From Bacillus sp. ISL-37 (GTDB taxonomy: Bacteria; Bacillota; Bacilli; Bacillales; Cytobacillaceae), in assembly GCF_018613315.1 (NCBI RefSeq), contig NZ_JAGGQL010000044.1, positions 1 to 64,000 of the forward strand: a stretch of 64,000 nucleotides of DNA, in the 5' to 3' direction. The stretch's first letter is position 1; each line of letters opens with the position of its first letter. A program made the position numbers and the translations under genes. Shown here in pieces: positions 197 to 35,864 of the stretch. The notes under the pieces are model-generated. The model was not told where the DNA came from. It saw only the letters and a list, made by a program, of their open reading frames with translations, and ran no database searches.

Positions 197-1657
197 TTAC
201 GTCCCACAAAATGTCCGATAAGGTCTTGCCGCTGGCGGAGCTGGCTTGCAGAATTCGGCCTGTTCAGCTGAATGTTCGTATGGATTGGCGAGGACTTCAA
301 GCAATTTCACCATGACGTTCAAGTCACCATTCACTGCAGCCTCGAGTGCTTCCTCCACCCTATGGTTGCGAGGAATGACGCCCGGATTGCTGTCACGCAT
401 CAGCTCCTGTGCGTCTTCCTTCGATTGCTCCTGGCGCCCCAGTCTTTCCTGCCATCTGCCAAGCCACTTCGTGAACTCCTCAGCCTGGAACAGTTCTGAT
501 CCTTCCAGCTGATCAAAGGTTAAAGCCTTAAACGTATTCGTAAAGTCAGCATTATGTTTGTGCATCAGATTAAGCAAATCAGAAATAAGTGCTTTATCTT
601 CTTTTTCCTCATTGAAAATACCCAGTTTCAGCCTCATTCCGGAAATGAATTCTGCTTCAAATATTTCCGGGAACTCAGAGAGGGCTTCCTCCGCCAGTTT
701 CACGGCCTCATCTTCTTCCTCATGCAATAAAGGCAATAACGCTTCAGCAAAACGCGAAAGATTCCAGCCACCGATATACGGCTGATTCCCATAGGCATAG
801 TGGCCATCCCGGTCAATTGAACTGAAAACCGTCGCCGGGTCATACGTCTCCATGAAAGCACAAGGGCCATAATCGATTGACTCGCCGCTGATTGTCATGT
901 TGTCAGTGTTCATGACACCGTGGATAAAACCAACCTGCTGCCATTTCGCAATCAATGATGCCTGGCGCTTGATCACTTTTTTCAAAAAGGAAAGGTAGCG
1001 GTTATCCTCCCCCGCGACTTCAGGATAATGTCGCTCAATTGCATAATCAGCCAGTGCCCTCAGGTCCTCTGTCTTACCCCAGTTGGCGGCGAATTGGAAT
1101 GTTCCCACCCTGAGGTGGCTTGCTGCCACACGAGTAAGAATTGCTCCAGTTTGCATCGTCTCACGGATGATTTCCTCTCCTGTTGTCGTAACTGCCAGAC
1201 TTCTGGTCGTCGGGATTCCCAATCCTACCATCGCTTCACTGATGATAAACTCCCGCAGCATTGGTCCAAGTCCAGCGCGCCCGTCTCCTCCACGCGAATA
1301 TGGCGTCCGCCCTGAACCCTTCAGCTGTATGTCAAACCTCTCACCATCCGGAGTAATCTGCTCGCCCAACAGGACCGCCCTGCCGTCTCCAAGCATTGTG
1401 AAATGTCCGAATTGATGTCCTGCATATGCCTGAGCAAGAGGTGTTCCTCCTTCAGGAATCTCGTTTCCGCCAAAGATTACAGCCCCTTCTTCATCTTGCA
1501 GCGCTTCAGGATTCAAACCGAGTTCTTCCGCCAGCGACTCATTGAAGATTACCAGTTCAGGTGCTTCCACAGTAGTCGGTTTCTGCAGACTATAAAATAT
1601 TTTAGGCAGCCGTGAATAGCTATTATCGATATTCCAGCCAGATTGATTGGTTGTCAT
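197..1657 (-). CDS. selO: Protein adenylyltransferase SelO (YdiU/UPF0061 family)
   Basis: A pseudokinase-fold enzyme that transfers AMP from ATP to Ser/Thr/Tyr of target proteins; in bacteria it is tied to redox stress (family knowledge). At 486 residues it has the usual length. Visible family motifs are GDGRA near residue 90, [19 protein letters not shown] with the ATP lysine at about 113, HGVMNTDNM with Asp253 and [13 protein letters not shown] with Asp263, matching the known active-site pattern. The C-terminus ends TFCGT with cysteine where eukaryotic SelO has selenocysteine. The ATG at 1657 was chosen because GGAGG lies 7 bases upstream; the open frame continues to 1849 but that extension is not SelO-like. 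It is transcribed away from the dehydrogenase at 1848. Confidence 0.95.
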
Positions 1658-1847
1658 TGGATTGCCTCCTTTATCTTCACGTTCTTGTCGTTCGTTTTTC
1701 ATATCCATTAATGTATTCTTCCTTTTACTTAATATACCCTCCCTACTGATTGGTAAAGCTGTCATTTGTTTTAGCTCCAGGGTTAGAAAAATACTTTTTA
1801 AGAATAATAATTGTGGGTAAACAAATAGTGTAGAAAGGAGAATTGCC

Positions 1848-2744
1848 ATGAATTATAAAAACATTACTGTCGCCGGAAGCGGCGTTTTAGGAAGCCAAAT
1901 TGCTTTCCAAACTGCTTACCATGGATTCAACGTTTCAGTCTACGATATCAACGATGAAGCGATCGAGCGCGCCAAGGAACGTATCTCGAAGCTTATGCCA
2001 CGTTACCAGGAGGATCTTGGAGCATCCGAGCAGGAGGTTGATAAGGCCTACAACCGCCTTTCTTTTTACAGTGATCTTCCACAGGCGGTAGCTGACGCTG
2101 ATTTGGTCATTGAGGCGGTACCTGAGGTCATCGACATCAAAACGGATTTTTACAAGAAACTAGGACAATTCGCACCTGAAAAGACTGTGTTCGCGACGAA
2201 CACTTCTACGTTGCTGCCAAGCCAGTTTGCCGATGCGACAGGGCGTCCTGAAAAATTCCTTGCCCTTCACTTTGCGAATGAAATCTGGAAAAATAACACC
2301 GCCGAAGTCATGATGCATCCTGGCACAGACAAGAAAGTGTTTGATGATCTGTTGGAATTCGCAAAAGCCATCGGCATGGTCGCCTTGCCTTTATACAAGG
2401 AGCAGCCTGGATATATCCTGAACTCGTTATTGGTGCCGTTTTTAGAAGCAGGCCAAATGCTGCTCATGAAGGAAGTTGCCGACCCGGAAACCATCGACAA
2501 GACTTGGATGATAGCAACCGGCGCTCCAAAAGGACCGTTCGCGATTTTAGACATCGTCGGAATCACCACAGCATACAATATCGCCAATGCCAAGGGCGAA
2601 GCTGGGGTACCACAATTTAAAGAGCTCGCGAATCTATTGAAAACTGAGTACATTGACAAAGGAAAACTCGGTGTAGCAACCGGTGAAGGATTTTATAAAT
2701 ATCCGAACCCTAGCTATGAACAGCCAGGTTTTCTAAAAGAATAA
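1848..2744 (+). CDS. 3-hydroxyacyl-CoA dehydrogenase (3-hydroxybutyryl-CoA dehydrogenase type)
   Basis: NAD(P)-dependent oxidation/reduction of 3-hydroxyacyl-CoA in fatty acid or butanoate metabolism, in the cytoplasm. Residues 6-16 show the Rossmann dinucleotide motif [10 protein letters not shown], followed by the acidic residue at the end of beta-2 (VYDIND) that favours NAD. The stretch [15 protein letters not shown] and [17 protein letters not shown] are typical of the family's catalytic Ser and His regions. At 298 residues it is a single-domain-pair enzyme, not a fused FadB/FadN. AAAGGAG lies 7 bases before the ATG. It appears monocistronic and ends in a clear terminator. The exact chain-length preference cannot be read from sequence. 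Confidence 0.88.
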
Positions 2745-8052: not shown

Positions 8053-8104
8053 TTCTTTCCTCAAAGGGAGAAGTTATATATAGTGAAGAAAAGGAGGTTT
8101 CGAT

Positions 8105-8653
8105 ATGGAATATGTATTAGAAACTACAGATCCTGAAAAATCACTAACCTTGAAAACAGCCATTCAGGGGAATCCGACGATGGTCGTATTTGTGCGCCAC
8201 CTTGGCTGACCAGTCTGCCGAGCATACCTTGCGCAGTTGCGCGAGCGAATAACTGAAGTTGAAGCAACAGGTTACCAGGTCATAGCCGTCGCCCCTTCAA
8301 AAGGCTCTTTTATCAAGCAATTCATTGAACAGTTTGGGCCTTTCCCATTTCCTATACTTGGGGATCCAACGCTTAAAGCATATCGGGGTATGGGCCATAA
8401 AACGATGCCTAAGTGGAAGCTGCTGGCGAAAGCCGGTTTTGGTTTTATTACCGGACAGGTCAAAGATTTTATTCCTAAAAACGAGAAGCAGAAGGAATTC
8501 GTCTTGAAATCGATGAAGACACAGGACGTCTACATCCAGGGAGGAACCTGGCTCTATTCGGCCGACGGCAAACTCTTATGGAAGCATATCGATGAATCAC
8601 CCGAGGATCACGCAAAAATTGATGAAGTCTTGCAGCAAATGAAAAAACGCTGA
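8105..8653 (+). CDS. Putative selenoprotein: SelL-related / AhpC-TSA_2-type thioredoxin-fold protein with in-frame TGA (Sec35)
   Basis: Translating from the ATG at 8105 (GGAGG about 8 bases upstream) gives 182 residues if the TGA at 8207-8209 is read as selenocysteine: FVRHLG-U-PVCRAYL, with Sec35 and Cys38. Relatives carry Cys at this spot in a CxxC redox motif, so the stop codon sits exactly at the catalytic residue. Downstream the frame stays open with typical family stretches: VIAVAPSKGSFIKQFIEQFG, FPFPILGDPTLKAYRGMG and QGGTWLYSADGKLLWKH. A SECIS-like hairpin follows the TGA. The likely role is a thiol/selenol redox enzyme or peroxiredoxin-like reductase. Alternatives are a nonsense-mutated Cys protein or a base error (TGC/TGT to TGA). 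Proof needs selA/selB/selC/selD in the genome, none of which are in this window. Confidence 0.8.
8210..8255 (+). promoter_or_regulatory. Candidate bacterial SECIS element
   Basis: Directly after the in-frame TGA. The upper stem is CUUGCGC (8228-8234) pairing with GCGCGAG (8239-8245), 7 bp with one G-U, and the loop AGUU has G at its second position, 27 nt after the TGA. A lower pairing CAGU (8211-8214) with ACUG (8252-8255) closes the element. Location and loop fit the known bacterial SECIS rule (apical G 16-37 nt after UGA). Confidence 0.7.
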
Positions 8654-8684
8654 TCAGCTTAACTCGCGATCAGCGTTTCTTCTT
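8648..8684 (+). terminator. Terminator overlapping the end of the selenoprotein gene
   Basis: Stem CGCTGATC/GATCAGCG (8648-8655 and 8668-8675), then TTTCTTCTTTT. The 5' arm contains the stop codon of the SelL-type gene and the 3' arm contains the stop of the small minus-strand ORF. Confidence 0.8.
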
Positions 8685-8777: not shown

Positions 8778-8993
8778 CCTAATCTACCTCCGTTGTTAAT
8801 ATGTTGTTGGTTATAGTATTCCCACTCTAGCAAACTTTTATTCACCCAATTTTTAGAAGGATTGATAGTCTATTAGTTTAGACGGAGGTAGATTGGAAAA
8901 GTTGCATAATTAAGTAAAAGTTTTACAATTTACCTTTAGTCAGATTCCACATGCTGCAATTGAGCCGAGGCGCGTAGGCCAGATGACCCCAAA

Positions 8994-9727
8994 CCTGTCT
9001 TAATTCCTTCGTTTTCTTGACAGCTTTTGGCCTCAGGACCTCTTACCTGTCACAATTCCTTCGTTTTCTTGACAGCTTTTGGCCCGGTGCACCCAAACCT
9101 GTCTTAATTCCTTCGTTTTCTTGACAGCTTTTGGCCTCAGGACCTCTTACCTGTCACAATTCCTTCGTTTTCTTGACAGCTTTTGGCCCGGTGCACCCAA
9201 ACCTGTCATAATTCCTCCGGTTTCTTGACAGCTTTTGGTCTCAGGACCTCATACCTGTCATAATTCCTTCGTTTTCTTGACAGCTTTTGGCCCGGTGCAC
9301 CCAAACCTGTCATAATTCCTCTGGTTTCTTGACAGCTTTTGGCCTCAGGACCTCATACCTGTCACAATTCCTTCGTTTTCTTGACAGCTTTTAGCCTCCG
9401 GACCTCATACCTGTCACAATTCCTTCGTTTTCTTGACAGCTTTTAGCCTCGGGACGTCAAACCTGTCATAATTCCTTCGTTTTCTTGACAGCTTTTAGCC
9501 TCAGGACCTCATACCTGTCACAATTCCTTCGTTTTCTTGACAGCTTTTGGCCTCAGGACGTCAAACCTGTCATAATTCCTCCGGTTTCTTGACAGCTTTT
9601 GCCCTCAGGACCTCATACCTGTCATAATTCCTCCGGTTTCTTGACAGCTTATGCCCTCAGGACCTCATACCTGTCATAATTCCTTCGTTTTCTTGACAGC
9701 TTTTAGCCTCAGGACCTCATACCTGTC
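8994..9727. repeat. 52-bp tandem array 3 (CCTGTC..GACAG family), 14 units
   Basis: CCTGTC recurs exactly every 52 bp from 8994 to 9722 (8994, 9046, 9098, 9150, 9202, 9254, 9306, 9358, 9410, 9462, 9514, 9566, 9618, 9670, 9722). Each unit reads CTGTCATAATTCCTTCG..TTGACAGCTTTT with an inverted CTGTCA/TGACAG pair. The second half alternates between two variants in the first units (TCAGGACCTC and CGGTGCACCC), giving a 104-bp higher-order repeat at the left end. No coding sequence is seen. Confidence 0.95.
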
Positions 9728-35552: not shown

Positions 35553-35663
35553 TTAAGTAAACGTTGATGTATTAACAGCTCATATGCAGCGGCAAAAAAC
35601 AGCATGAGTCTATCAATTGATCCCCGTATACCTTCCCTATTCCCGAAGAAGATAACACGAATA

Positions 35664-35830
35664 AATATGGCAGGTCTCCTGACTTGCGCTTCACCCTACT
35701 TTAAGGCCTTCCCATCTATTTTTTAGACAGTGGTTCATCCTTATTTCGTCAGCACTTACAGTTGCGGGAACAGTTCTGGATTCTCACCAGATTCCCTATT
35801 AAGTCTTGTTCAGACACCATACTTATCGGT
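35664..35830 (-). promoter_or_regulatory. Cobalamin (B12) riboswitch aptamer
   Basis: On the minus strand the conserved blocks appear in order: GGTGTCTGAACA, GGGAATCTGGTGAGAATCC, the B12 box region GTTCCCGCAACTGTAAG, GAACCACTG, GATGGGAAGGCC and GCGCAAGTCAGGAGACCTGCC. It is followed by an intrinsic terminator, so B12 binding should shut off the thioesterase-nrdA-nrdB operon. B12 control of class I RNR is known in Streptomyces where a B12-dependent class II enzyme also exists. Confidence 0.95.
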
Positions 35831-35864
35831 AATTTCAATATTTAGTTATGAAACTATTCATCTA

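Follow-up and report, generated by a model that had tools for sequence, protein, structure and literature searches.

The window that we analyzed, a stretch of 64,000 nucleotides of Bacillus sp. ISL-37 DNA, carries at 8105..8653 on the forward strand a predicted selenoprotein coding sequence of 182 codons plus stop, whose conserved frame holds one internal TGA that would be read as selenocysteine (Sec, U). The frame starts at an ATG (8105) preceded at 7 nt by a Shine-Dalgarno-like AAGGAGG that is visible in the sequence (8091..8097, forward strand), ends at a TGA stop (8651-8653) and is open throughout except at the TGA of codon 35 (8207..8209, forward strand). Reading this triplet as Sec gives 182 residues with the motif RHLGUPVCR, in which Sec35 would open a U-P-V-C motif and Cys38 (8216..8218, forward strand) would be its partner residue. 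The initial annotation had described such an intact frame with a single interruption and had expected ORF callers to clip it, and both points held, as the plain ORF list gives only 8237..8653 with a TTG start. A bacterial SECIS-type hairpin of 7 bp follows at 8228..8245 on the forward strand, with the apical loop AGUU at 8235-8238, and the end of the gene is overlapped by a probable terminator (8647..8676, strand not assigned), seen in the sequence as an inverted repeat ACGCTGATC...GATCAGCGT followed by a T-rich tract; its loop of 12 exceeds the limit of our inverted-repeat search, and it is therefore absent from the list produced by that search.

Just downstream of the gene, a 52-bp unit is repeated in 14.3 copies at positions 8985-9727, a stretch that holds no long ORF. 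Other genomes in the genus have similar arrays next to the locus, as shown by DNA matches offset by 52 bases. Elsewhere in the window we noted a 550-residue ORF with a Cys near its C-terminus (197-1849, reverse strand), which may belong to the SelO/YdiU family, and a cobalamin riboswitch (35652-35836, reverse strand; 124.1 bits).

Family assignment of the predicted protein

Profile comparisons placed the predicted protein above the gathering thresholds of Pfam AhpC-TSA_2 (54.8 bits; gathering 27) and AhpC-TSA (PF00578; 48.3 bits; gathering 26), and 33/33 members of A2 match both (E up to 0.001). On sequence grounds we class it among the AhpC/TSA_2 redoxins, with SelL and prostamide synthase as relatives. 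The best NCBIfam match, covering nearly the whole length and with the active residue at the same place, is the SelL-related redox protein model NF040769, whose cut-off of 120 bits the window protein (95.5) does not reach; the 4/4 other members of the order that we tested also fall below it, such that all five score between 80.9 and 105.7. A TGA homolog with an AGUU hairpin from outside the order (L199 of genome G806) scores 148.8, over the cut-off, and the second TGA paralog of that genome (102.1) and the Cys homolog of genome G919 (81.1) are again below. SelL proper carries UxxU with a diselenide, whereas the present family has UxxC in 102/110 loci and UxxY in 8/110, and the window protein falls outside SelL proper. 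It resembles the Prx-like thiol:disulfide oxidoreductase selenoproteins (PF00578, UxxC/UxxU), a predicted group of high confidence in Table 1 of PMC13188914, in exceeding the PF00578 cut-off and in carrying a UxxC motif.

Solved Cys homologs bear out the earlier claim that the TGA stands where the family has the first Cys of its CxxC motif, since they have that Cys at the aligned place. The prostamide/PGF synthase structure PDB 9us9, deposited under a lipid-reductase name, aligns with residues 5-179 and has CxxC where UxxC stands here (E 1.5e-6), although it carries Cys rather than Sec and the similarity is low (31 bits). In typical peroxiredoxins the peroxidatic residue is the final one of a PxxxT/SxxC motif, and the window protein does not follow this pattern: against the BCP-type thiol peroxidase PDB 2cx3, a member of the same superfamily, Sec35 aligns with the Ser of SPVC and Cys38 with the Cys. 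The alignments with 9us9 and 2cx3 therefore place Sec35 at the thioredoxin-type attacking-Cys position and not at the peroxidatic one. Sec peroxiredoxin, also of this superfamily, is listed with the motif TxxU in Table 1 of PMC13188914.

Conservation of the TGA codon and of the reading frame

Most of the closest relatives of the gene that bear a name come from Mesobacillus or Cytobacillus, from which we take the host to be a Mesobacillus and the order to be Bacillales. Within the genus we found a near-full-length copy in 16/21 genomes, with an internal TGA in 16/16, and the same held for the family (near-full-length copies in 50/193 genomes, each with an internal TGA; decayed pieces not covering codon 35 in 2/193) and for the order sample (near-full-length copies in 69/397 genomes, all TGA, besides one copy cut short in G363 and one remnant in G007). 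The phylum sample (398 genomes, E up to 1e-7) yielded three matching genomes besides the window's own, two of which (G806, G938) have two neighboring TGA genes each and the third of which (G919) has a Cys form, CPLC. The neighbors in G806 and G938, which lie outside the order, are paralogous pairs (L199 and L200/L202), each gene with its own TGA and AGUU hairpin, and in one paralog of these pairs UxxG replaces UxxC (L200, with Gly at the Cys38 place). Searching a plasmid collection gave one weak partial match only, from Thermomicrobium roseum (48% of the query at 36.8%).

Alternation between Cys and TGA at codon 35, which the initial annotation had anticipated among homologs, did not appear in the family or the order: every near-full-length copy found has TGA, and no Cys form turned up in 193 family or 397 order genomes when the best few candidates per genome were scored (8 in the order search; E up to 1e-20 and 1e-12, with 1e-7 as the limit for the phylum). 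Because the query profile carried Cys at the codon 35 position, Cys forms were not disfavored in these searches.

To build a locus set we took 147 loci and removed two without a codon-35 column (L197, L198) and 35 identical coding sequences, leaving 110; short remnants (L041, L042, L078) and a group of paralogs and weak matches (L002, L043-L053) lay outside the 147. One of the 110 (L178) has a stop TAG 48 codons after the TGA and was excluded from the codon-entropy, dN/dS and tree analyses. Aligning these non-identical homologs revealed a conserved TGA at codon 35 in 110/110 loci, never TAA or TAG, and terminal stops that vary (TAA 53, TGA 31, TAG 26). Codon 38 is Cys in 102 and Tyr in 8, all 8 Tyr copies keep the TGA, and Tyr38 occurs in two separate places of a FastTree tree, one of them poorly supported; some family labels on this tree are defaults and unreliable (L075 and L076, shown as f1). 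Only positions 35 and 38 have Cys in 8 or more of 109 sequences. The available part of PMC13188914 gives as a general rule that nearly all selenoproteins have Cys homologs, in contrast to the family and order searched here, with no Cys form found and Cys38 exchanged for Tyr twice on the tree. This pattern shows that the in-frame UGA at the redox-active Cys position, codon 35, is being conserved as a sense codon.

Median dN/dS was 0.13 before the TGA and 0.07 after it, indicating purifying selection on both sides (250 of 268 pairs sampled at 80-97% identity, with 207-230 giving usable values). Were the TGA a true stop and the locus a pseudogene or a sequencing error, the decayed copies or remnants seen in some kin would fit, but a TGA at exactly this place in every one of the 110 loci, never exchanged for another stop, and the low dN/dS on its two sides make this reading exceedingly improbable, since a decaying gene would keep neither the frame nor the frozen codons of the hairpin.

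A conserved hairpin downstream of the TGA

A 7-bp hairpin with G in the loop and further lower pairing had been placed within the 27 nt that follow the TGA. The 7 bp and the loop G stand, but the hairpin spans nucleotides 19-36 after the TGA and so reaches beyond those 27, and the lower stem was rejected as part of the element because its pairing is not conserved in homologs. As described in the accessible sections of PMC13188914, bacterial SECIS elements have a loop of 3-9 nt, an upper stem of 4-16 bp, a G at either of the first two loop positions, a spacing of 16-37 nt and an MFE of at most -7.5. Checked against this published model, the window hairpin conforms in every constraint (loop 4, stem 7, G second, spacing 25, -12 kcal/mol), as do 103/110 loci, with 7/110 failing the strict test; as a background, 262/2704 TGA triplets in the window (9.7%) pass the same constraints. 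Folding energy alone was set aside as SECIS evidence, being uninformative for the window hairpin (z -0.63; 45/200 shuffles fold at least as well). The hairpin is thus significant not on its own but because it is conserved, with the TGA in 110/110 loci, the pairs kept and the two most frozen codons of the alignment within it.

At least 6 of the 7 pairs form in 110/110 loci, and the loop is AGUU in 109/110 and AGGU in 1/110. Across 100 distinct aligned sequences, 98.4% of 700 cells are paired (shuffles average 95.3%, and the best slid version reaches 64.3%), and 25 cells are changed on both sides (shuffled mean 10.8; 0/500 shuffles as high). These both-sides changes fall in only 2/7 pairs, which 16/500 shuffles reach, shuffles give just as many pair types (6.0 vs 6 here), and a version slid by 3 columns has 3 pairs changed on both sides (4 cells). 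Column pair 25/36 is A-U in 52, G-C in 24 and G-U in 22 sequences, column pair 26/35 is C-G in 99 and U-A in 1, and 2/7 pairs never vary.

Evaluating synonymous codon choice in 105 codon columns (those with at least 60 sequences sharing the residue, Met and Trp left out; median entropy ratio 0.93), we found that the two columns of lowest entropy both lie in the hairpin, namely codon +9 after Sec (Gln CAG 109/109; background 0.47) and codon +10 (Leu TTG 108/108; background 0.15), with codon +12 (Glu GAG 84/88; background 0.29) nearly as low. A constraint that the hairpin leaves unexplained is seen at codons -2 and -1 as well, ahead of the TGA (entropy ratios 0.26 and 0.51). Outside the order, 4/4 TGA paralogs from two genomes likewise have the AGUU hairpin after their TGA. 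Judged by its pairing and codon patterns, the conserved hairpin just downstream of the TGA is selected at the RNA level. Because it freezes codons, and because the Cys form of G919 is without Gln-Leu-Arg, the conservation of Gln-Leu-Arg in the protein may in part be a by-product of the RNA element.

The TTG at 8237, from which a mechanical ORF caller starts its product and which is the codon used in all 108 loci with Leu there, could be taken to mean that the locus makes a pair of products, namely a leader of 34 residues that stops at the TGA and a protein re-initiated at this TTG or another internal start. This TTG, however, lies within the loop and stem of the hairpin without a Shine-Dalgarno-like sequence before it, the re-initiated product would presumably lack the active-site motif as well as the beginning of the fold, and P36, C38, R39, L42 and Q44, in the stretch between TGA and TTG, are invariant in 33/33 aligned members, so that we regard re-initiation as very unlikely. 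Truncation, pseudogene, sequencing error and restart are all disfavored.

Selenium machinery and a second candidate gene

Searching the genome assembly (4.74 Mb, 62 contigs) for the four genes that had been proposed as a check on the interpretation revealed all of them, as befits a bacterial selenoprotein gene: selC, the tRNA-Sec (67.1 bits, cut-off 47; ARAGORN anticodon tca), selB (357.7, cut-off 242.25), selA (563.1, cut-off 267.9) and selD (395.4, cut-off 125). The selD gene lies about 0.6 kb from selA and has its own in-frame TGA (G000:C61:152219-153145, reverse strand, locus L021, in the window's own genome), and the context of that TGA, KAGUGCKISP, fits the UxxK motif listed for Sec-containing SelD in Table 1 of a 2026 review (PMC13188914).

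Across the genus, tRNA-Sec scored over the cut-off in 20/21 genomes, the missing one being 66% complete, and under stricter filters in 172/193 family genomes, including 49/50 carriers of the gene, the exception again being 66% complete. Co-occurrence of gene and tRNA-Sec in these 193 genomes (one-sided Fisher p 0.012, phylogeny ignored) is weak evidence, because tRNA-Sec is so common in the family. In one genus of the family (g20; G165-G177), 13/13 listed genomes are without tRNA-Sec over the limit, which looks like loss of Sec use.

Conservation demands read-through in any case, and the TGA might then be read as some other amino acid (Trp or Cys, by a near-cognate or suppressor tRNA). Against this, 31/110 of these genes end in TGA, which therefore works as a stop in these cells, and the locus has a hairpin of the SECIS type in a genome with the complete Sec machinery, such that other decoding is very improbable. 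With selA, selB, selC and selD in the genome, a hairpin that fits the SECIS model and a conserved TGA at codon 35, the selenoprotein interpretation of the initial annotation is supported, and we conclude that the gene at 8105-8653 very probably (probability roughly 0.92) reads its TGA as selenocysteine in a small redox protein.

The same genome holds a candidate second selenoprotein (G000:C55:162121-163458, reverse strand; loci L002/L106), in which an AhpC-TSA domain with GTW-U-PNC is fused to an MCP signaling domain (PF00578 110.6 bits, PF00015 90.7 bits). In the available part of PMC13188914, no chemotaxis fusion appears among its 119 selenoprotein families. Among 193 family genomes (E up to 1e-45) we found 10 full-length copies of the fusion (9 in the genus and one in G163), all with TGA, and relatives consisting of the redoxin part alone, with TGA (L116, L117), or of the C-terminal part (L118). 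The sequence CAGCTG-GTC-CAGCTG follows the TGA in 10/12 fusion or redoxin copies, and L108 and L116 differ from it by one or two bases.

Gene loss and neighborhood

Some genomes of the genus are without the gene, which is therefore dispensable. In two of the genus genomes (G006, G007) the flanks of the locus are kept, only the last part of the gene remains, its 5' part is gone, and tRNA-Sec is still present; other genes must therefore hold Sec use there, and SelD and the MCP-fusion redoxin would be among the candidates. Remnant or decayed copies occur in scattered genomes (L041, L042, L078, L178, L197, L198), with the flanks and only the 3' part of the gene kept in L041 and L042. Comparing the neighborhoods of the window and 24 named loci (flanks of at most 5 kb, ORFs of at least 80 aa), we found that, gene-overlapping ORFs aside, none of the neighbors frequent in the Mesobacillus set also stands at the Cytobacillus or Pseudalkalibacillus loci, and no partner can therefore be named.

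Proposed chemistry and significance

Sec is inserted at UGA in bacteria by SelB together with Sec-tRNA(Sec) and an mRNA hairpin, and here a SelB that binds both Sec-tRNA(Sec) and the hairpin described above would insert Sec at the UGA of codon 35. The Sec35 selenolate, at the first, attacking Cys position of CxxC, would then attack either a hydroperoxide or a disulfide; the product would in most members be resolved by Cys38 as a Sec-Cys selenylsulfide, to be reduced by a thioredoxin- or bacillithiol-type donor, and in the Tyr38 members an external thiol would have to resolve instead, as it does in glutathione peroxidases. That the TGA is invariant and Cys38 replaceable suggests that Sec35 is the catalytic residue and Cys38 only resolving, and the distant TGA paralog with Gly at the Cys38 place (L200) agrees with this. 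We infer that the protein most likely reduces hydroperoxides or disulfides with the help of a thiol donor, and we lean, with some reserve, toward peroxidase-like chemistry over a plain disulfide exchanger.

Taken jointly, we give even odds to a broader picture, in which a subfamily scattered through the order holds an irreplaceable Sec that is not seen reverting to Cys and outlives its partner Cys, and would thus act as a peroxidase with a single selenium and not as a better CxxC oxidoreductase, in which the frozen RNA element also dictates A/T-Q-L-R in the protein, and in which the Sec redoxin-chemotaxis fusion of the same genome is a candidate selenium-based redox chemoreceptor.

Table 1 of PMC13188914 already includes the Prx-like UxxC selenoproteins as a kind. 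What appears to be new is a Sec-only subfamily across the order that the NCBIfam model leaves out at its cut-off, as seen in 5/5 order members tested. Among the matches listed in a literature search of open-licence papers, no paper dealt with the gene family in Bacillales or with a Sec chemoreceptor, which is weak evidence. To our knowledge, selenium use is rarely associated with Bacillus-like bacteria. Set against the three selenoproteins reported for Bacillales in the available part of a 2006 survey (PMC1794560), we found tRNA-Sec in 172/193 family genomes and a Sec-type TGA redoxin in 69/397 order genomes. If the subfamily is indeed Sec-only, methods that seek Cys/Sec pairs would tend to overlook such families.
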